The position numbers and the translations under genes were made by a program. The notes beneath the pieces are model-generated. The model was not told the DNA's origin. It ran no database searches and saw nothing but the letters and a program-made list of their open reading frames with translations. From Anaeropeptidivorans aminofermentans (GTDB lineage: Bacteria; Bacillota; Clostridia; Lachnospirales; UBA5962): DNA of 64,000 nucleotides. Within the stretch, counting starts at the first letter, position 1. The number at the start of each line of letters is the position of its first letter. This document shows, in pieces, positions 1,443-27,335 of this stretch. The stretch lies in NCBI RefSeq assembly GCF_940670685.1, contig NZ_OW711693.1:3658001-3722000 (forward strand), in the 5' to 3' direction.

Positions 1443-3551
1443 ATGAAGTATCGACAGAGAGCTAAAACGCCGTGACAAACGGGTGCAGAAAATGACCCGT
1501 GACGGCGCGTTTGAGAAAACCGAACCACCGGCACAGCCGAGCGTATCAGTCAAAGGGACAACGAGCCGGTATTTTCAAAGCCGCAGGACGCGGCGCAGCC
1601 CTTGACCCCGGAGCCGGGTGCGCCACTAAAACCGCCTTTGCCGCTTTCATCAGGCCGGGCGAAGCAGGACACCGGCGCAGCCGACCGCGTATTTGACCGG
1701 CTGGATACCGAACATAGCCGCCAAAAGCAGAAAAAAGCGGTAAAAAAGGCGAATGAGCTTATCCGGCAGCAGAGACAGCAAGGCCGGGAGCCGGAGCAGC
1801 CGGGAGCGCAGCCCCGGCAATCTTCCCGGTTGCAGTTTACCGACGAGGAACGTGCCGACCCTGCATTATCACGGTATATTCGCAAATCCGACAAAGCCGC
1901 TGACCGGCTGGACGTGGCGCGGGATAGGATACCCAAACAGAAAAAGCCTGTATTAGAGCGCACTTTTGACGAGCCGGACGGCAAAGCAAAGGTGCGTTTG
2001 CGTTTTGAGGATACCGGCAAAAAGCCCGTGGGGAAAATACGCCACAACCCCGTTGACCAACCGGCGCGGGAGCTTGGCGGTGCTGTTCACAACGAGATAC
2101 ACCGTGTAGAGCATGAAAACGCCGCTGTCGAGGGGGCGCACAAGGCCGAGCAGTTAGGCGAACGCGCCGGAGGGTACGCCGTCCGCAAGGTAAAGGAGGG
2201 CTACCGCAGCCATAAGCTCAAACCCTACCGCGCCGCAGCCAAAGCCGAGGACGCAGCTTTCAAGGCCAACGTCAATGTGCGGTATCAAAAGGCCTTGCGG
2301 GATAATCCGCAGCTTGCCGGGGCAAATTCCCTTTCAAAGTACATTCAAAAGCAGAAAATCCGCAGGGAGTACGCAAAAGCCGTTCGGAATGGTACGGCAC
2401 GGGGCGCGCGTGGCGCAGCCGCCACAGTGAAGAAAACCGCTCTAAAAGCCACCGAAACAGCACAGAAAACCGCTGCCTTTGTCACTCGCCACTGGAAGCC
2501 TATTTTAATCATTGTCGCCGCTGTTCTCTTGCTCATTTTTCTGTTTTCCGGCCTATCTTCTTGCGGGAGTATGCTGCAAGGCGGCTTTTCGTCCATTATC
2601 GGCACAAGCTACACCGCCGAGGACGAAGCCATAAACGCGGTTGATGCTGACTATTCAGCCCTTGAAATCGGCTTGCGGGAGCAGATAAACAATGTCCCCC
2701 GCGATTACCCCGGCTATGACGAATACCGCTATTTTGTGGACGAAATCGGACATGACCCTTTCGAGCTTGCATCTTACCTGACCGTTAAATATCACGACTA
2801 CACGCGAGAGGAAGTACAGGCCGAGCTTGCCGCCCTATTTTCGCAGCAGTATACCCTTACCATTCAGGAGGTTGTCGAAGTCCGCTACCGAACGGAAACC
2901 TATACCGACACATGGACAGACCCGGAAACCGGCGAAACCCATTCCGAAACCTACACCGTGGAAGTGCCGTACAACTATTATATTCTCGTTGTGACGCTGA
3001 AAAACAAGTCTTTGGGGAGCGTCGCCACCGCGAACCTAACCGCCGAGCAGCGGGAAATGTACGATATTTACATGGAAACGCTTGGCAACAAGCCCTATCT
3101 GTTTGAGGGTAACGCCAATGTAAATCGGGGCGAGTACACCGACTACGACATACCGCCCGAAGCCCTGACAGATGAATGCTTTGCCGCCATGATTGCCGAA
3201 GCCGAGCGATATTTAGGCTACCCCTACGTTTGGGGCAGCAGCAGCCCGTCCACTTCTTTTGATTGTAGCGGTTTCGTCTGTTGGGTTATCAATCAGTCTG
3301 GCGTTGGCAGCGTGGGGCGCACGACGGCGACCGGCCTTTTCAACCATTGCGCCACTATCCCGCCGAGCGAAGCGAAGCCGGGCGACCTTATCTTTTTCCA
3401 TTCCACCTATGACAGCGCGGGGCCGGTTAGTCATGTCGGTATCTATGTCGGAAACGGCATGATGATACATTGCGGCAACCCTATAAGCTATGCGTCGGTG
3501 ACTTCAAAATACTGGACGGAACATTTTTACGCTTACGGCAGATTGCCGTAG
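1443..3551 (+). CDS. NlpC/P60-type conjugation cell-wall hydrolase (CD1107/ORF14-like), 5' end frameshifted
   Basis: A membrane-anchored peptidoglycan hydrolase that opens the wall for the transfer channel. The continuous frame spans about 1515-3551, with no ATG near its start; TTG 1602 is the first usual start codon. Numbered from 1602: a charged Ala/Lys/Arg-rich N-terminal region, one membrane segment near residues 298-320 (PILIIVAAVLLLIFLF), then an NlpC/P60 domain with catalytic Cys near 555 (FDCSGFV), His near 611 (SHVGIYVG) and a third polar site HCGNP. Upstream, the expected N-terminus IDRELKRRDKRVQKM is readable in another frame (1450-1516). One extra A after the ATG at 1443 and one missing base near 1515 would restore a single ORF. 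Either the gene is damaged at its 5' end or the sequence has two compensating indels. Confidence 0.8.
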
Positions 3552-12598: not shown

Positions 12599-12838
12599 GT
12601 GTTTATGAAACTACTATTGTTCCACTATCGGCAATCCGCAAGAGCTTAAAAATCCGTATCAAAAAGGTGCGTTTTCGCTCAAAAACCCGCCTGTATGGGC
12701 TTCCCCGAACGGCGGTAATCTCTTTCCCTTACCCGGTTCAATCCGGGCATTTTGTACTATTATGGTGCGTGTATTTTATTGAAAGAATAGGGGCGCGACG
12801 GCCTGTATTGGCTGTCGCGCCCCTGTTTCTTTTTATGC
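12599..12838. terminator. Intergenic region with a second hairpin terminator
   Basis: No gene is seen. A perfect 11-bp hairpin, AGGGGCGCGAC (12789-12799) with GTCGCGCCCCT (12814-12824), is followed by TTTCTTTTT. It lies between convergent genes and probably terminates both the plus-strand operon and the minus-strand membrane protein gene. The rest (12,600-12,785) holds nothing recognisable. Confidence 0.65.
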
Positions 12839-20293: not shown

Positions 20294-20986
20294 ATGGAAA
20301 ATTGGATATTGACGGTAGGCTGCCCGAAAGAAGAATTTGTCGCTTGTCAAAAAGAGTGGTTACGCTACAATATGCTGCTTCGTTTAGTCAAAACAATGCA
20401 AGAAGCTGTTGAAGAAATAACTAAAAGTAATTATCTCTTGTTCAGCATTTGTATTAACCCGCATGAATACTTGCCTTACATACAACTTATCCGCGAAATA
20501 AAACCTATACCTATCATGATTGTTCCCCGTGAATATAGTGCATTGGATAAATTAGAAGCTATCCAGTTAGGGGCCGACAGTTATCTTGAAATGCCTAATT
20601 CCTTAGAAGAATGTGTTGCTTCCGGGTGGGCACTTGTGCGTAGATACACCGAACTAAATTATAAAAAGCAAGAGCATATCAGCATTATTAGTAATAAAGA
20701 TATTTTTATTTGCTTGGATTATCGAAAAGTTTTCATACGGTCAATTGAAGTGAATTTAACACGAATAGAATTTGATATATTGCAGTTGCTTATGTCAAAT
20801 AAAAAACGTGTTTTTACTTATGAACAAATATTTTGCCATGTTTAGGGCAATGATTATTTTGATAGCACAAATAGTATATTGTGGAACCATATCAAGAGGT
20901 TAAGGCAAAAACTTAAAACCGAACTTGATATGCCGGATTATATAAAAAACGTCCATGATTTAGGTTATGTATTTGACCCTGAATAA
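20294..20986 (+). pseudogene. OmpR-type response regulator with an internal amber codon
   Basis: A response regulator-like gene: receiver-like N-terminus (MENWILTVGCPKEEF, LEAIQLGADSYLEMP) without an obvious phosphoacceptor Asp, then a winged-helix output domain (VNLTRIEFDILQLLMSNKKR, TYEQIF). At 20,843-20,845 a TAG interrupts the frame. Directly after it, in the same frame, GNDYFDSTNSILWNHIKRLR and KNVHDLGYVFDPE complete the DNA-binding domain up to TAA 20,984-20,986. Relatives usually have Trp before the Gly, so TGG to TAG is the simplest explanation. The truncated 183-aa protein lacks its recognition helix. It lies between the ars cargo and the ICE control genes and probably regulated the ICE. 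Confidence 0.82.
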
Positions 20987-21556: not shown

Positions 21557-21985
21557 GTGACACCCTCAAGCCACGAGCGAAACAAGCAACACGCCTTTGA
21601 CAGCTTTTGCAAAAAGATACTCAAGCACGAAGCCCGCGACCATTACGACGAAATGAAGCGGCAGCGTGAACGTGAGGTATCCTTTTCGGAGTTGTCGGCG
21701 CGTGAGATGGAGCAGCTTTACACAGTGGACAGTTATTTTGCCACGGAACAGGTTTTCAATGTTTTAGGCTATGATGTAGTCGTCAATGACGAGCTTATCG
21801 CCGAAGCCCTGCGGAACCTGCCGGAGCGCAAACGTGACATTATACTGCTGGCCTATTTCCTTGAAATGTCTGACCGGGAAATCGGGGAAAAGATGCACTT
21901 GATACGCGCTACCGTCCAGTACCAGCGGACAAGCACGTTGCGGGAACTAAAAAAGTATTTGGAGGAAAACGCTAATGAACAGTAA
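21557..21985 (+). CDS. ICE sigma-70-like factor (Tn916/Tn1549 type)
   Basis: A 142-aa small sigma-70-like protein conserved in conjugative transposons, thought to turn on excision or transfer genes. It begins TPSSHERNKQHAFDSFCKKI and has a C-terminal region 4: EALRNLPERKRDIILLAYFLEMSDREIGEKM, an HTH motif. GTG 21,557 is chosen because AAAGGGGGTGAG lies 4-14 bp before it and conservation starts there; the same frame is open back to 21,338 but that part (Cys- and Tyr-rich) is not protein-like. It overlaps the next gene by 11 bp. Confidence 0.88.
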   Translation: MTPSSHERNKQHAFDSFCKKILKHEARDHYDEMKRQREREVSFSELSAREMEQLYTVDSYFATEQVFNVLGYDVVVNDELIAEALRNLPERKRDIILLAYFLEMSDREIGEKMHLIRATVQYQRTSTLRELKKYLEENANEQ

Positions 21986-22211
21986 AACCGCAAGTAATTT
22001 GCTTCCGTATCCTGTTATCGTGCTGGCGGCAAGCGGCGACGTTGACGCTATCAACGCTGTTCTCAAACACTACGAGGGCTATATAGCCGCCTTGTCCACA
22101 AAGCAGCTTTACGATGAAAGCGGTACAGCGCATTTGTGTGTTGATGAAGCTCTGCGCCGTCGTCTGGAAACGAAGCTGATTACCAAAATCTTGACTTTCA
22201 AAGTCGCATAA
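21975..22211 (+). CDS. HTH_16 conjugative transposon helix-turn-helix protein
   Basis: A 78-aa protein of the HTH_16 family common beside the ICE sigma factor: LPYPVIVLAASGDVDAINAV, HYEGYIAALSTKQLYDESG, and DEALRRRLETKLITKILTF. It starts inside the end of the sigma gene (TTGGAGG as ribosome binding site), so the two are coupled. It is followed by a long structured non-coding stretch. Confidence 0.88.
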   Translation: MNSKTASNLLPYPVIVLAASGDVDAINAVLKHYEGYIAALSTKQLYDESGTAHLCVDEALRRRLETKLITKILTFKVA

Positions 22212-22679
22212 ATCCTTTTGCCTGTGCGGGAAGCGTGCCCCCCTTTCCACACTTCCCGTCCACGGGCTTTTCGTGTTGTCAATCGGTAGAAGCCCACCGG
22301 GAGCCGGTGAAGTTTCTACGGCCTGACAATGGCCTTTGTACTTTGACAAAGAAAGCCCGCAAGAGAACGGCGGCGCAGTATAGGCAAAATTGGATACGTT
22401 CGGTTTATGTCGAGCCGGGCGGCGGGTGCGCCATGACCTCTATTGTAGAGAGAGCGACCAACACCATGCCGTAATGCAAGCGTGGCAGCTTGCGGGCGAG
22501 GAAGCATAGGTCGGTATATTGATACTCCCTTACAGTCACAGTCCGAGCGTTCAAAGCGTCACAGGCAATGAGTAGGGCTGCGTGAGAACCACGCAGGGGT
22601 GAAAGTCCCGTGAGGTTGCGCCCGCAACCGTCCAATTATGCCTTTTTCATTTTAACTATTCAATGAAAGGGGCTTTGTC
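22212..22679 (+). ncRNA. Highly structured non-coding stretch between HTH_16 and tnpW
   Basis: 468 bp with no convincing ORF but dense pairing. CGGGAAG (22,227-22,233) with CTTCCCG (22,252-22,258). A triple nested hairpin: TTGTCA/TGACAA (22,276-22,281 with 22,324-22,329), GTAGAA/TTCTAC (22,286-22,291 with 22,314-22,319), CACCGG-gag-CCGGTG (22,295-22,309). CTTTGT-actttg-ACAAAG near 22,334. CAAGC-gtggca-GCTTG near 22,477. CTGCGTG-agaac-CACGCAG (22,578-22,596). GGTTGC-gccc-GCAACC (22,614-22,629). There is no T-run behind the last hairpin. It could be a regulatory leader of tnpW/recombinase or a stable RNA. I cannot name the family. Confidence 0.6.
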
Positions 22680-22859
22680 ATGGAGAAATCCAAAGAAGAC
22701 GCGCCCGAAGCGTCCGGGCAAAATCCTTTAGAGGATACGCGAACATATACCGTACAAGGCAAGACATTTATCGTCGAGCCTGTTTTCAAATCTGGTGTAA
22801 AAGAAACTGTTGGCACAATCCTTTTGCGGCTTATCCAATCGGACACGCAAACGCCCTAA
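22680..22859 (+). CDS. tnpW: TnpW-like small transposon protein
   Basis: A 59-aa protein: acidic N-terminus (MEKSKEDAPEASGQNPLEDT), then RTYTVQGKTFIVEPVFK and ETVGTILLRLIQSD. This matches the TnpW proteins encoded just before TnpX-type recombinases. GAAAGGGG precedes the ATG. Role in excision is suspected but not shown by sequence. The recombinase gene starts 91 bp downstream. Confidence 0.82.
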   Translation: MEKSKEDAPEASGQNPLEDTRTYTVQGKTFIVEPVFKSGVKETVGTILLRLIQSDTQTP

Positions 22860-22950: not shown

Positions 22951-24711
22951 GTGAAACAGTCGAATGGCAAGGCAAAAATCTATTATGCCACAGATTTAGA
23001 GGTTCGGTACAACAAGAAAGACCGGGAGAAAACAGCCTTTATCTATGTGCGTATTTCCCGTGAGGACGATTTAGAAGCCGAAAGTTACAGCATACAGAAT
23101 CAAATTAAGCTCTTAACCCAGTTGGCGACGGAATACGGCTATACCGTTTTGATTATTTTCATGGACGACGGTATTACAGGCGTAATCGCCAAACGCCCCG
23201 GTTTTCAGAATATGCTTGCAAAGCTGGAACAGCAATACGCAGCGGCGTTATTCGTCAAGGATTTATCCCGGCTGTACCGCAACCGCACGGAAGCCGACAA
23301 ACTGATTGATGATTTCTTGCCGGAGCATGAAATACGGCTTGTATCTGTGGGTGACAGCATTGACACCGCCGAGGGCGACGACGAATTTATCTTTCTGCGT
23401 AATTGGGCGAATGAGCAATACGCCCGTGACATTTCAAAAAAACGCCGCCTGTCAAACAGGGTAAGGGGCAACGCCGGTGAACCGCTTTCCATGCCGCCCT
23501 ACGGGTACATGAAAGACCCGGAAAACCCCAAACGCTGGATTGTGGACGAGGAAGCAGCCGCCACCGTTCGCCGGATATTCAGCATGACGCTGGACGGCTA
23601 CGGCACGGAGCAAATCGCCGCCGCCCTGTCTGCCGACAAAATTCTAACGCCTATGTTCTACTGGCGCAGCAAAGGCGTGAAACGTCCCGGCAAAGTGACT
23701 GACCGGGAGCCGCACAAATGGAATAGTTCAACCGTCGTCAAAATCCTGTCTTTACAGGAGTATTGCGGGGACGTTATCAACTTTAAGACCTATTCCAAAT
23801 CATTCAAACACAAAGAGCGGTTACCTAACAGCGAGGAAAATTGGGCAATTTTTAAGGACGTTCACAACCCCATTATTGACCGTGGGATATGGGAACAGGT
23901 GCAGCAGAAACGCGGCAAGGTGCGAAAGCGCGTTACCAACGAGGGCGAAAAGAGTATGTTTTCCGGCCTTTTGCGTTGTGCTGATTGCGGGAAAAACCTG
24001 TGGTATCATTTCAATCAGAAGAACCACGATATTAAGTATTTTAACTGTTCTAACTACAAGGGCAATCGCGGTACTTGCACAAGCACACATTATGTCCGTG
24101 TTGACTTTTTGGAACAGGTTGTACTTGGTGAGATACGCCGCCTGACGCAGTTTGCAAGCCGGTACGAAACCGAGTTTGTCAAGGCGGCAATCGGGCAATC
24201 ACAGCAGAACATTGAAGCAGAACGAGAAGCCTTGCGGCGGGAGCTTAAAGCCTTGCAGAAACGCGACGCGGAGCTTGATAACCTGTTTCAACGGATTTAC
24301 GAGGACAACGAAAGCGGCAAAATCACCGACGAGCGGTTTGCGAAAATGTCCGTGAGTTATGAAACGGAGCAAGCCGAGCTTGTCCAGCGCGTGAAAGCCT
24401 TACAAATGGAGCTTGACAAGGAAACTGATAAATCAATGTCAATGGATTTGTTTATCGCCAAAGTACGCAAGTACACCCGCGCAAAGAAATTGACGCAACG
24501 AATGCTAAATGAGCTTGTGGACTACATAGAAGTGTGTCAAGCCGAGAAGATAGACGGCGTACACGTTCAAAAGCTCAAAATACATTACAACTGCGTTGGC
24601 TCCATAGAGATACCTAACGTATTGCCACTTCCGCAGCCGGAAGTTTTGATACAAACGAGAAAAGGAGTAGCTGTTAGCTACTCCCAATCTCAAAACGTTG
24701 CTAATTTTTGA
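22951..24711 (+). CDS. TnpX-family large serine recombinase
   Basis: The 586-aa integrase/excisionase of the ICE. The N-terminal resolvase domain has YVRISREDDLEAESYSIQNQ with the catalytic Ser followed by SIQNQ, DDGITG, and LSRLYRNRTEADKL. The recombinase domain follows (PYGYMKDPENPKRWIVDEEA), then a zinc ribbon (LLRCADCGKNLWYHF, CSNYKGNRGTC), a coiled coil (about residues 410-490) and a basic C-terminus. GTG 22,951 follows GGAAAGGAGGG. The last codons (VAVSYSQSQNVANF, stop 24,709-24,711) overlap the antisense end of the res gene, so the element's right end is here or a few bases on. Confidence 0.94.
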   Translation: MKQSNGKAKIYYATDLEVRYNKKDREKTAFIYVRISREDDLEAESYSIQNQIKLLTQLATEYGYTVLIIFMDDGITGVIAKRPGFQNMLAKLEQQYAAALFVKDLSRLYRNRTEADKLIDDFLPEHEIRLVSVGDSIDTAEGDDEFIFLRNWANEQYARDISKKRRLSNRVRGNAGEPLSMPPYGYMKDPENPKRWIVDEEAAATVRRIFSMTLDGYGTEQIAAALSADKILTPMFYWRSKGVKRPGKVTDREPHKWNSSTVVKILSLQEYCGDVINFKTYSKSFKHKERLPNSEENWAIFKDVHNPIIDRGIWEQVQQKRGKVRKRVTNEGEKSMFSGLLRCADCGKNLWYHFNQKNHDIKYFNCSNYKGNRGTCTSTHYVRVDFLEQVVLGEIRRLTQFASRYETEFVKAAIGQSQQNIEAEREALRRELKALQKRDAELDNLFQRIYEDNESGKITDERFAKMSVSYETEQAELVQRVKALQMELDKETDKSMSMDLFIAKVRKYTRAKKLTQRMLNELVDYIEVCQAEKIDGVHVQKLKIHYNCVGSIEIPNVLPLPQPEVLIQTRKGVAVSYSQSQNVANF

Positions 24712-27335
24712 GTGTTCGGCATTTGAAAAGCCACGAACTTCTCAAATGCTGTAAGAACACTCGCAATGCAGCGGATAACAGTATCTAAAATGTCCTGATT
24801 GGAAAGCAGTAATTTCTTTTCTATTTTCTGTAAAATTCTAAAAATTGCAAAGCGGGGCAGATTCGTATGGTACATAATGCGATTTGCAAGTTCAAAATCA
24901 CTTTTTGGGATAATAGGCTCCTCTTCATAGCGATTCAGGACTTTCGTATCCCTGCCGCTAATAACGATGCGCCCTGTGTCGTCTGCCTCCACTTCAGCGC
25001 CTTTGATTTCATATTGATTTTGCACCTTGCGGTATAATAAAAGCGCATTGATTTCATTGATGCACTCATCAATAAACTTCTCTTTATCAAGATTAAGCCT
25101 ATAAATAGTCCGTTTAGACAATTGCTCAGCTAAGCTCCTGAAAATCTTAAAAAAGCTTTCTTCGGAGCAATAGGAGCGTCTGCTGTTTTCCATCGGCTCA
25201 TTATCCCCGTTACGGATATGGATTTTACTGCTGCCTTTTTCTACCATGCTTTCTTTAAAGGCCTTCATAATCATTATACAGTGTTCTTTTAATGTAGCAT
25301 CAGTAAATAAAATATTTCCGTTTATTTGATTTGCCTTGCCTGTCAGCATGTTTTTTGAGTTGATAATGCCGGCGAAGAAAAGCTCCTCCCGCAGCTTATC
25401 AACAAGCTTGGCATTTATCTTATCTATGGGCACGCCTGCCTTTTTCAAAGTGACTGCAAGAATATCCGGCGTAACCTCATCTTTCTTAAAGTTCATGGCG
25501 TCATTAAAATCCTTTTGCAGTCTGTCGGCAAAATGGGCAAAATTATCATTGGCAATAATCGTAAGCTCGTTAATGGCAGAATCTGTGCAGCGTACGCCGT
25601 TAATATCCACCGGAAGCCGTAATCCACGCCCGATTTCCTGTTTTTTTGCAATATCGCTTCCGGCATTTTTAAGGGTACAGATGGTGAAAATATTGGGATT
25701 ATCCCATCCTTCCCGCAAAGCGGAATGAGAAAAAATAAAGGCCAGCGGCTCGTCAAAGGAAATCAGCTCGTCCTTCTTTCTAAGAATCAGCTCAATTCCC
25801 CGGTCAATATCCTCCTGGGATTTTGTCTTTATTTTCAGCTCTTCTTCCGGAAGGCTTGAATCCCAGCCTTCTACTTCAACCGCATTTTTATATTTATCCA
25901 CGGCAAAGTAGCCCTCCCGGACTTTAAAAATTTCATCAGGACCGGCAAAGGAATTAAGGGCTTCCTTTAGGTTCTCAAACATTTTCTTTCCATTTTCCCC
26001 TTTAACCGCCCTTTCATATTCTTCATCAAAAATACGCAGATAATCACCGCGGCCGTCACTTCTCGTATTGTCTCGCACCTTTGAGACATTATCTACGAAA
26101 AACAATGTCAAAACCTTTATCTTCCGCCCTTTACGCAAAATCTCTGTCTGCTTTTTAAAGTGATTTTCAATGGCAAGGCGTATTTGAATTCGGACAGCTT
26201 CGTTTTCGGTAATTTCGTAGGTACTGTGACCGGAAGCTAATTCAATAGTTTCATTTCCTGCAGAAACCTTCAGAGGCTTCAGCTTATGGGGGTCTTCTGC
26301 AATACGGTAATCTGCATATTGCGGCAGGCCCCCCGATAAATCAAAAAGCGATGCGTTTCCCCGGACTTTAAAGGTCTCAAAGCGGATGCCCCGCCCTTGC
26401 TTTTGGGAAAACATCTCAATCCGTGCGTAGAGGTCCTTTGTAAAATCAAGATAGCGGATATAGGGAAAGTCCTTTGGAATAACGCCGTTTATTGTTTTAA
26501 CCTGAATTTGTTTCACAAGCTCTTTTTTATAGGCATCATAGGAATTAAGCTTATAAATCTGATTATATAGCTTCTTATGGGTTGCCGAATAACGCAAAGT
26601 AAAAAGAGGATTTATGTCTTCAATGGCTTGCAAGGACTTGGATTTTTTACTTTTAGCCCCTTCAATTTTCTGGGGCTCATCAATAATTACAATCGGGCGT
26701 ATCTGTTTAATATCCGCCCACAGCACCCTGCCGTATTCGTCCTCGGCACGGATTTTATTGCTGTCTTTATTAAAGGCCTGTATATTCAGAATACAGAGGG
26801 ATAAGTCCTTTGCCTCTACAAAGCTGCTGATAATACGATTTGGATTCTTGCTGTCATAAATAAAACTATGCTTCGTAAGGTCCATATTATAAATGGCCTT
26901 AAAATGCTCTTTTAGCTGCTGAATGGATTTTTCCACCCCCAGCCGAATGGGAATGCTCGGCACTACAATCATGAACTTTTTAAACCCGTATTTCTGATAC
27001 AGCTCTAAAATTGTACGAAGGTAAACATAGGTTTTCCCTGTGCCGGTTTCCATCTCTATTGTAAAATTATTATCGTAAAGAGCTTTGTCGGCATACAGGC
27101 CGTTATCCAGCTGCACTGTGCGCAAATTTTCAAGCATTCGGCTGCCTGAGGAAATTTCAGCATTGGAAACGGGGTCGCCTTCTGCAAGGCCTTTAATATA
27201 AGACGCCGGCTCATAGAGCCCTCTTATTTTTTTAGGGAGGCCGTCAAAAAGCCTGACAACAGAATTGATTGCGTCAAGCTGATAGTCAAGCTGATCATCG
27301 AACTGAAATTGTATCTTTCTTCTTTCTTTCGCCAT
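24690..27335 (-). CDS. Type III restriction subunit Res, truncated by the ICE
   Basis: An 881-aa SF2 helicase-type subunit of a type III restriction-modification system. Walker A is METGTGKTYV (residues 95-104), the DEAD-box equivalent DEPQ is at 219-222, SATHK is motif III, and HSALREGWDNPNIF and QEIGRGLRLPVD are motifs V and VI. Family members have a C-terminal PD-(D/E)XK nuclease domain. None is seen; the protein ends FQMPNTQKLATF in a few codons shared with the ICE. The lost 3' part should lie beyond the left end of the ICE. Start ATG 27,335. It is cotranscribed with mod. Predicted: no DNA cleavage. Confidence 0.88.
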   Translation of the reverse strand: MAKERRKIQFQFDDQLDYQLDAINSVVRLFDGLPKKIRGLYEPASYIKGLAEGDPVSNAEISSGSRMLENLRTVQLDNGLYADKALYDNNFTIEMETGTGKTYVYLRTILELYQKYGFKKFMIVVPSIPIRLGVEKSIQQLKEHFKAIYNMDLTKHSFIYDSKNPNRIISSFVEAKDLSLCILNIQAFNKDSNKIRAEDEYGRVLWADIKQIRPIVIIDEPQKIEGAKSKKSKSLQAIEDINPLFTLRYSATHKKLYNQIYKLNSYDAYKKELVKQIQVKTINGVIPKDFPYIRYLDFTKDLYARIEMFSQKQGRGIRFETFKVRGNASLFDLSGGLPQYADYRIAEDPHKLKPLKVSAGNETIELASGHSTYEITENEAVRIQIRLAIENHFKKQTEILRKGRKIKVLTLFFVDNVSKVRDNTRSDGRGDYLRIFDEEYERAVKGENGKKMFENLKEALNSFAGPDEIFKVREGYFAVDKYKNAVEVEGWDSSLPEEELKIKTKSQEDIDRGIELILRKKDELISFDEPLAFIFSHSALREGWDNPNIFTICTLKNAGSDIAKKQEIGRGLRLPVDINGVRCTDSAINELTIIANDNFAHFADRLQKDFNDAMNFKKDEVTPDILAVTLKKAGVPIDKINAKLVDKLREELFFAGIINSKNMLTGKANQINGNILFTDATLKEHCIMIMKAFKESMVEKGSSKIHIRNGDNEPMENSRRSYCSEESFFKIFRSLAEQLSKRTIYRLNLDKEKFIDECINEINALLLYRKVQNQYEIKGAEVEADDTGRIVISGRDTKVLNRYEEEPIIPKSDFELANRIMYHTNLPRFAIFRILQKIEKKLLLSNQDILDTVIRCIASVLTAFEKFVAFQMPNTQKLATF

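Follow-up and report, generated by a model that had tools for sequence, protein, structure and literature searches.

The locus considered here raises the question of what kind of RNA, if any, is made from a stretch that lies between two small genes near one end of an integrative and conjugative element (ICE). The stretch occupies positions 22212-22679 of the window, by which is meant the whole 64,000-nt piece of Anaeropeptidivorans aminofermentans DNA that was analysed, and its coordinates and content are as given in a first-pass annotation that had proposed an undescribed structured RNA next to the recombinase module. The reading argued for below, held with a probability of about 0.8, is that the region is a canT-type processive antiterminator RNA of a Tn1549-like ICE. 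Such an RNA is known in kind and is new in this element.

The plus strand of 22212-22679 folds at -184.6 kcal/mol, compared with a mean of -158.9 kcal/mol for dinucleotide shuffles (z -4.0; 0 of 100 shuffles), and the minus strand gives z -3.3. Taken separately, 22386-22638 and 22212-22385 have z scores of -3.4 and -3.3, respectively, and in each case 1 of 200 shuffles folds as well. At least eight perfect hairpins had been claimed; with stems of at least 5 and loops of 3-10 the count is seven, short of that number yet above the shuffle mean of 3.0, and seven is attained by 20 of 500 shuffles. With stems of at least 6 there are six hairpins, against a shuffle mean of 0.84, and none of 500 shuffles attains six. 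A hairpin density far above background was not borne out, as 21 of 136 tiles (468 nt each, from the whole window, coding tiles included) also hold seven or more by the same count. The three-tier nested hairpin reported at 22276-22329 is present and is kept in a set of relatives.

The RNA region stands on the plus strand in the order sigma-70 region-4 gene, HTH_16 gene, RNA, TnpW-type gene, large serine recombinase. The sigma-70 region-4 gene (21557-21985; Pfam Sigma70_r4_2, 1.4e-8; its GTG start is the analyst's choice) and the HTH_16 gene (21975-22211; Pfam HTH_16, 7.7e-26) hold the places of orf7 and orf8 of Tn916. The small gene that follows the RNA (22680-22859) has no Pfam or NCBIfam match and is called TnpW-type from its place, at which two relatives (L003 and L004) carry an annotated TnpW. 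The recombinase (22951-24711) shows the Pfam domains Resolvase, Recombinase, Zn_ribbon_recom and DUF4368. Elsewhere in the window, a response-regulator-like ORF (20294-20845) ends within its DNA-binding domain (Pfam Trans_reg_C, 3-34 of 77 matched).

The host element is a Tn1549-like ICE of about 32 kb (length by arithmetic from coordinates) inside a type III restriction res gene, which is split into a helicase-part ORF on the minus strand of the window (24690-27335) and an endonuclease-domain ORF on the minus strand of the stretch that holds the left end (L068, 12099-12698). The element contains DUF6017, VirD4/TraG and relaxase genes, then cargo that includes ArsA-like and other arsenic-type genes (recognized from ORFs and an arsA match), and finally the sigma/HTH/RNA/tnpW/recombinase end. 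Words common to both ICE ends, compared in search of an attachment core, reach 7 nt at most, and the exact ends are not fixed by them.

A search of Rfam, which the first-pass annotation had recommended, places pemK RNA (RF02913) at 22516-22613 on the plus strand, with 58.5 bits against a gathering score of 34.8. This is the sole Rfam family above threshold in the window; a permissive scan returned, besides pemK, sub-threshold matches alone. The Rfam model has 61 positions and covers the 3′ part alone, without the closing helix P1, hairpin P8 and the 5′ half. On sequence comparison, 22388-22637 is a closed domain of about 250 nt homologous to canT of Tn916. The element is thus undescribed only in part: its 3′ part is the pemK RNA of Rfam and the whole domain has canT as its homologue, and what is possibly new is the boxA-like box 5′ of the domain and the conservation of the nested leader hairpin. 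The family is named for the pemK gene, which lies outside the model, and no such gene occurs downstream of the RNA in the window, as judged from ORFs and Pfam; the TnpW-type gene is found there instead. The pemK motif reportedly goes back to a 2017 paper, a survey by the Breaker laboratory.

The domain at 22388-22637 is recognized by homology, by a covariance model (R1) and by covariation. Its closing helix P1 consists of 8 pairs between 22388-22395 and 22630-22637. The 5′ half holds two hairpins seen by eye in the alignment and placed outside the scored structure, CUCUA/UAGAG (22438-22450), whose size varies among relatives, and GCAAG/CUUGC with a GUGGCAG-type loop (22476-22493). A conserved box, AUAUUGAUACU (22516-22526), differs in a single letter from its counterpart AUAAUGAUACU in Tn916 and is followed by the branched helix P5 with an inner hairpin (22528-22577), hairpin P6, CUGCGUG-AGAAC-CACGCAG (22578-22596), hairpin P7, GGG/CCC with the loop GUGAAAGU (22597-22609), and hairpin P8 (22614-22629). 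The elements P5 to P8 rest on the structure drawn on the window and on covariation.

An alignment of related ICEs with a covariation test had likewise been recommended. When 28 sequences were aligned with MAFFT without regard to structure, RNAalifold returned 38 pairs, 29 of them changed on both sides, and also yielded the 8-pair P1 closing the domain. The covariance model R1 (25 sequences, 258 positions, 39 pairs) was trained on 25 of the 28 rows of alignment A1, with L007, the second L003 place and L047 omitted. Over 63 sources R1 gives 62 matches in 61, with none in L068 and L069; in these 62 rows 96.9% of paired cells pair, compared with 73.2% when shuffled and 37-45% when slid, and both-sided change is seen in 36 of 39 pairs, including 8 of 8 in P1. 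Thirty loci (L008-L037) were fetched by Rfam's model, without P1 and the 5′ half, and all 30 match R1, 29 end to end and L037 in part; when L027, a copy of a training row, is left aside, 28 of 29 match end to end. In this Rfam-fetched set P1 is 92% paired, versus 60% with its strands crossed and with 0 of 10000 permutations doing as well (23 distinct rows; L028 and L037 set aside for gaps, L027 included). R1 also matches 80 of 80 loci in a named set, taken from at least 120 stretches that share a 31-nt motif located inside P5; 71 of the matches run end to end, 7 are truncated where the stretch ends and 2 are partial. In this set, paired cells amount to 96.2% versus 83.0% shuffled and both-sided change occurs in 26 of 39 pairs and in 7 of 8 pairs of P1, whose cells are 89.6% paired, the outermost pair failing in 24 of 65 rows. 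Alignment by R1 biases the rows in favour of its own structure; the alignment made without structure and the test with crossed strands are the safer measures. Since G-U cells number 218 and A-C cells 25, the plus-strand RNA is what is kept. Covariation supports the fold, including P1, and the earlier claim of a conserved structured ICE RNA adjoining the recombinase module stands.

The function of the homologue comes from work on Tn916, in which the region between orf8 and xis has been shown to be a cis-acting, processive and orientation-dependent antiterminator (PMC11658703, Wirachman and Grossman 2024). It is required for conjugation and not for excision, as canT mutants excise normally and have conjugation reduced about 100-fold. 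The 452-bp canT fragment extends from 126 to 577 bp past the orf8 stop, which in the Tn916-like element of pCF10 corresponds to L005 2844-3295, with the pemK match at 3001-3101 inside. The inactive canT(S3) allele carries TGC instead of ATA at one Tyr codon of orf5, an ORF of the antisense strand (PMC11658703). There are two such codons, L005 3001-3003 and 3007-3009, and because both are within AUAAUGAUACU, at the start of the pemK motif, the S3 change must fall in this box. Of the tolerated alleles, orf5(A30*) maps to L005 3106-3108, in the P8 loop by the analyst's reading, and orf5(M1I) to L005 3193-3195, past P1 and outside the domain; all three point alleles are therefore consistent with the fold. 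Other published findings speak against so simple an account of box and fold: a 400-bp fragment was affected little or not at all by S3, a 291-nt fragment containing the altered sequences was inactive, and the structure-activity relation of canT is termed 'complicated' by its authors (PMC11658703). In three relatives (L045, L047 and L048) P1 and P5-P8 are retained, but neither the AUAAUGAUACU box nor the GAGAAC loop remains.

The window copy resembles Tn916 canT in its location, with the HTH gene on one side and the recombination module on the other, and in the strand, a terminator or terminator-like site at the left end, the boxA-like box, the leader hairpins, the sequence of the core (about 85% in the pemK part) and the P1-closed domain, a comparison of folds for which the Tn916-like L005 is itself one of the training rows. 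The two differ in their elements, the window copy being part of a serine-recombinase ICE that has tnpW, and in the spacing of the boxA-like box, which is 36 nt from the domain in the window and 10 in Tn916. In the open-licence literature no paper was found that links the names canT and pemK, none that joins boxA, integrative and conjugative, and antitermination, and none beyond PMC11658703 on canT with antitermination and Tn916; the text of that report does not mention Rfam, pemK, boxA, NusB or Tn1549. Elsewhere, in those parts of the publications that are available, RF02913 is listed or is reported to have extra covarying pairs, with no function given, and 'pemK RNA' or 'pemK motif' serves as a test family or example where the protein is not what is meant.

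A protein-coding reading of the region is rejected. No conserved ORF, which the first-pass annotation had named as a refutation, was found among 65 distinct homologous domains, of which 3 are open from end to end in a plus frame and 16 in a minus frame. The lengths of these domains modulo 3 fall into classes of 31, 14 and 20. The antisense ORF at 22405-22635 matches Tn916 orf5 over 36 residues, and in Tn916 mutations expected to abolish the orf5 protein leave conjugation unchanged (PMC11658703). Annotated 'hypothetical' or over-long TnpW genes overlap the RNA region in L005 (2944-3195, minus strand), L003 (2914-3099, minus strand) and L004 (3117-3464); these are probably shadow ORFs or wrong starts.

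Relatives were gathered by blastn and covariance models, a regular-expression search having missed many loci. In blastn searches the RNA was found in enterococcal plasmids that carry Tn1549-type elements, at 77% over query 22330-22642, while Tn916-like and TndX-type elements matched through the pemK part at about 85%; not every record states the element name used here. The RNA is located 3′ of an HTH gene in L002, L003, L005 and L006, and is followed by xis-int in L002 and L005, by tnpW-recombinase in L003 and by tndX in L006; L004 has a TnpW gene downstream and no recombinase annotated in the stretch shown, and L007 is a record without annotation. Of 391 genomes sampled from the window's class, 121 contain RF02913, as against 0 of 14 control genomes; R1 is present in 34 of 398 genomes sampled from the phylum. 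The matches listed, sorted by name, are mostly of Clostridia type, with few Bacilli and one Planctomycetia MAG. In the last case (L173, 1323-1421) the canT-type RNA lies where a contig ends, and that contig is perhaps mis-binned.

Among the named loci (80 of at least 120 matched), 70 were used for the upstream side, where a sigma gene is present in 63 and an HTH_16 gene in 62. On the downstream side 65 of the 80 were used, with 1 kb each: a serine recombinase is found in 32 (19 with tnpW), a Tn916/Tn1549-type tyrosine integrase in 28 and neither in 5, so that 60 of 65 have a recombinase. This mixture of serine and tyrosine types, in a sample from at least 120 matches, indicates that the RNA is untied to any single mRNA. 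In the Rfam-fetched set, ORFs were counted for 27 of the 30 pemK loci (L021, L027 and L031 omitted), and after nested ORFs were dropped 30 of 37 remained upstream and 37 of 41 downstream. Sigma region 4 accounts for 13 of the 30 upstream ORFs; among the 37 downstream ORFs are 7 PemK, 5 serine recombinases, 8 HTH_17, 4 ParA and 1 Tn916-Xis. The RNA is followed in L104 by PemK, HTH_17, two integrases and household-type genes, in L103 by ParA, ParB and later a DUF3991/Toprim gene, and in L106 by an unnamed gene and serine recombinase genes. With downstream modules so varied and sigma/HTH genes steady upstream, the upstream regulator is the most constant partner of the RNA.

Just 5′ of P1, relatives carry a box of the GUUCUUUGAAAACU kind. 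In the window it is GUACUUUGACAA (22338-22349, plus strand), a putative boxA with 11 of 12 letters of a consensus that was composed after the sequences had been viewed. At a threshold of at least 10 of 12 letters the box is present in 17 of 17 ICE loci (the analyst's choice), in 18 of 26 pemK loci (26 of the 30, without L021, L027, L031 and L037; the other 8 fall below 10 letters) and in 53 of 55 named loci (from at least 120 matched; 67 of the 80 were given and 55 counted, being distinct with at least 90 nt upstream), against a background of 3-5% in control windows taken from these loci. Its distance before the model start is mostly 10-12 or 31-37 nt. The TTGACA within the box was considered as part of a promoter and rejected, as a promoter scan gives no site there. 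In an uncontrolled look at rRNA leaders and spacers (19 of 20 fetched copies; L252 and L259 gave nothing), ACAGTACCTTGAAAACTGAATAG was seen in 1 of 3 own-genome copies examined, and boxA-like boxes were seen in G179, G042 and G201 and in neither of the two G031 copies. Matches at -26 in the own-genome rRNA leaders (three copies) are unlike boxA, and an exact match to TGTTCYTTGAMAACT is absent from the own genome. BoxA is bound by NusB and NusE (S10), and both boxA and the Nus factors are conserved in B. subtilis (PMC6614801, PMC7819879). The resemblance to boxes in host rRNA leaders and spacers suggests an rRNA-type Nus complex, with the difference that here a 250-nt RNA domain follows the box; a route via NusB-S10 on boxA, as in rRNA operons, may be given slightly less than even odds. 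Counting against this route, the active 452-nt fragment begins past the first 5 nt of the box (analyst's coordinates), and an intact box is therefore not needed in that fragment.

Near its left end the host element has a terminator-like site (L068 12740-12768; -18.6 kcal/mol), which consists of a 13-pair stem and a T tract and is located 39 nt ahead of the first gene (DUF6017). Tn1549 has a terminator-like site at the same place, with a bulged stem and a T tract (-25.5 kcal/mol), found by eye and then folded; pattern scans for a plus-strand terminator at the Tn1549 left end gave none. A rule that a terminator just precedes DUF6017 is not general, as it applies to 4 of 17 genes (17 of 21 matches used) versus 9 of 102 random windows. 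A further putative terminator, with a 19-pair stem, is located 3′ of the plus-strand transfer genes (12785-12828, plus strand). A title in the reference list of PMC11658703 states that extraordinarily long stems let terminators resist processive antitermination.

The window copy has the homologous sequence, the fold, the strand, the place and the left-end terminator-like site, and by analogy with Tn916 canT it would be expected to act as an antiterminator. In such a mechanism the sigma/HTH operon of the element would be transcribed rightward, and the nascent RNA would fold into the P1-closed domain and, together with the boxA-like box, alter the elongating polymerase. Excision would join the right end (RNA, tnpW, recombinase) to the left end, where a strong terminator would stand ahead of the first transfer gene. 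The altered polymerase would then pass the left-end and later terminators, and the transfer genes would be fully expressed only from the excised circle. RNA-based processive antitermination is shared by conAn2 of pLS20, EAR and HK022 put (PMC11658703, PMC8955417). Identity with conAn2 is rejected, the best R1 match in pLS20 1-50000 having only 6.8 bits (E 0.24), and no pemK match was found in that stretch, searched as a whole; EAR and put are set apart through the Rfam thresholds in the window, where only pemK passes, rather than by direct comparison.

The end of P1 is 42 nt upstream of the tnpW start, a spacing that would suit a cis-regulatory leader governing the translation or stability of the tnpW-recombinase mRNA, and control of TnpW and recombinase translation had indeed been proposed at the outset. 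This proposal is not supported: the modules downstream are mixed in the manner described, with ParA or PemK in other loci, and canT mutants of Tn916 excise normally, which makes a leader of this sort improbable. Still less credence is due to a stable stand-alone ICE RNA working in trans; such an RNA would fit the strong fold and the many copies in mobile elements, but cis action is reported for the homologue (PMC11658703) and the place ahead of the recombination module is kept. That the conserved entity is a site in DNA, such as an oriT, a single-strand origin or a recombination site with a folding strand, has next to no likelihood: elements of this kind do move as single-stranded DNA and the minus strand folds nearly as well, but the excess of G-U over A-C cells is that of an RNA of one strand, and the map legend in PMC11658703 shows oriT916 and sso916 apart from canT.

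A division of labour within the region deserves more weight than these, though it is rather unlikely. Upstream of the boxA-like box are two leader hairpins, P-alpha (22220-22267, plus strand) and P-beta (22275-22330, plus strand), the latter being the three-tier nested hairpin; both reappear in the Tn916-like copy and in further elements, where base changes compensate for one another. Such changes affect 14 of 35 pairs in 8 rows and 19 of 30 pairs in 16 rows, the latter chosen for a high score with the leader model R2 or as training rows. Both hairpins precede the published active 452-nt canT fragment and are therefore dispensable for antitermination in that reporter. The domain might then be the antiterminator, with P-alpha and P-beta serving in processing, in transcript protection or as a boxB-like Nus part. 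The hairpins are not general, however, as 14 of 65 loci (sources of the analyst's choice) attain 66 bits with the leader model; L044 is without P-beta.

If the antiterminator reading of the whole region is adopted, an Rfam family of unclear role in databases, present in 121 of the 391 class genomes, would gain a probable function, and canT would gain a covariation-supported fold, a matter that its discoverers state they left aside (PMC11658703). The finding would join the pemK family of Rfam, canT, the supported fold and a possible boxA route, and the boxA-like box makes RNA-driven terminator resistance of RNA polymerase in Bacillota directly testable. A further prediction is that ICEs with either kind of recombinase, tyrosine or serine, Tn1549-type elements included, couple transfer to excision via one kind of RNA. 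A broader and quite tentative proposal, given less than even odds, is that canT and pemK RNAs form one 'nut-like' family of mobile elements in Bacillota. In this family boxA, in some members with leader hairpins, would load NusB-S10 and the 250-nt domain would replace a phage N-like protein. The resistant polymerase, assembled at the end of the element, would cross the attachment joint only once excision had produced the circle, and in members of the ParA type the site would head a plasmid or transfer operon.

Some relatives carry additional elements near the RNA. A second canT-type RNA is present a few kb from the first in L107 (6319-6574) and in L003 (5850-6096, minus strand). On contig C1 of G048 (about 151860-155020, minus strand) a canT-type RNA is found about 2.6 kb before a DUF6017 gene of the same strand, and the two perhaps belong to neighbouring elements. 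In Tn916-like elements the Rfam SQ2397 cis-regulator is located beside the HTH regulator gene (L005 1552-1781; L006 1656-1885).
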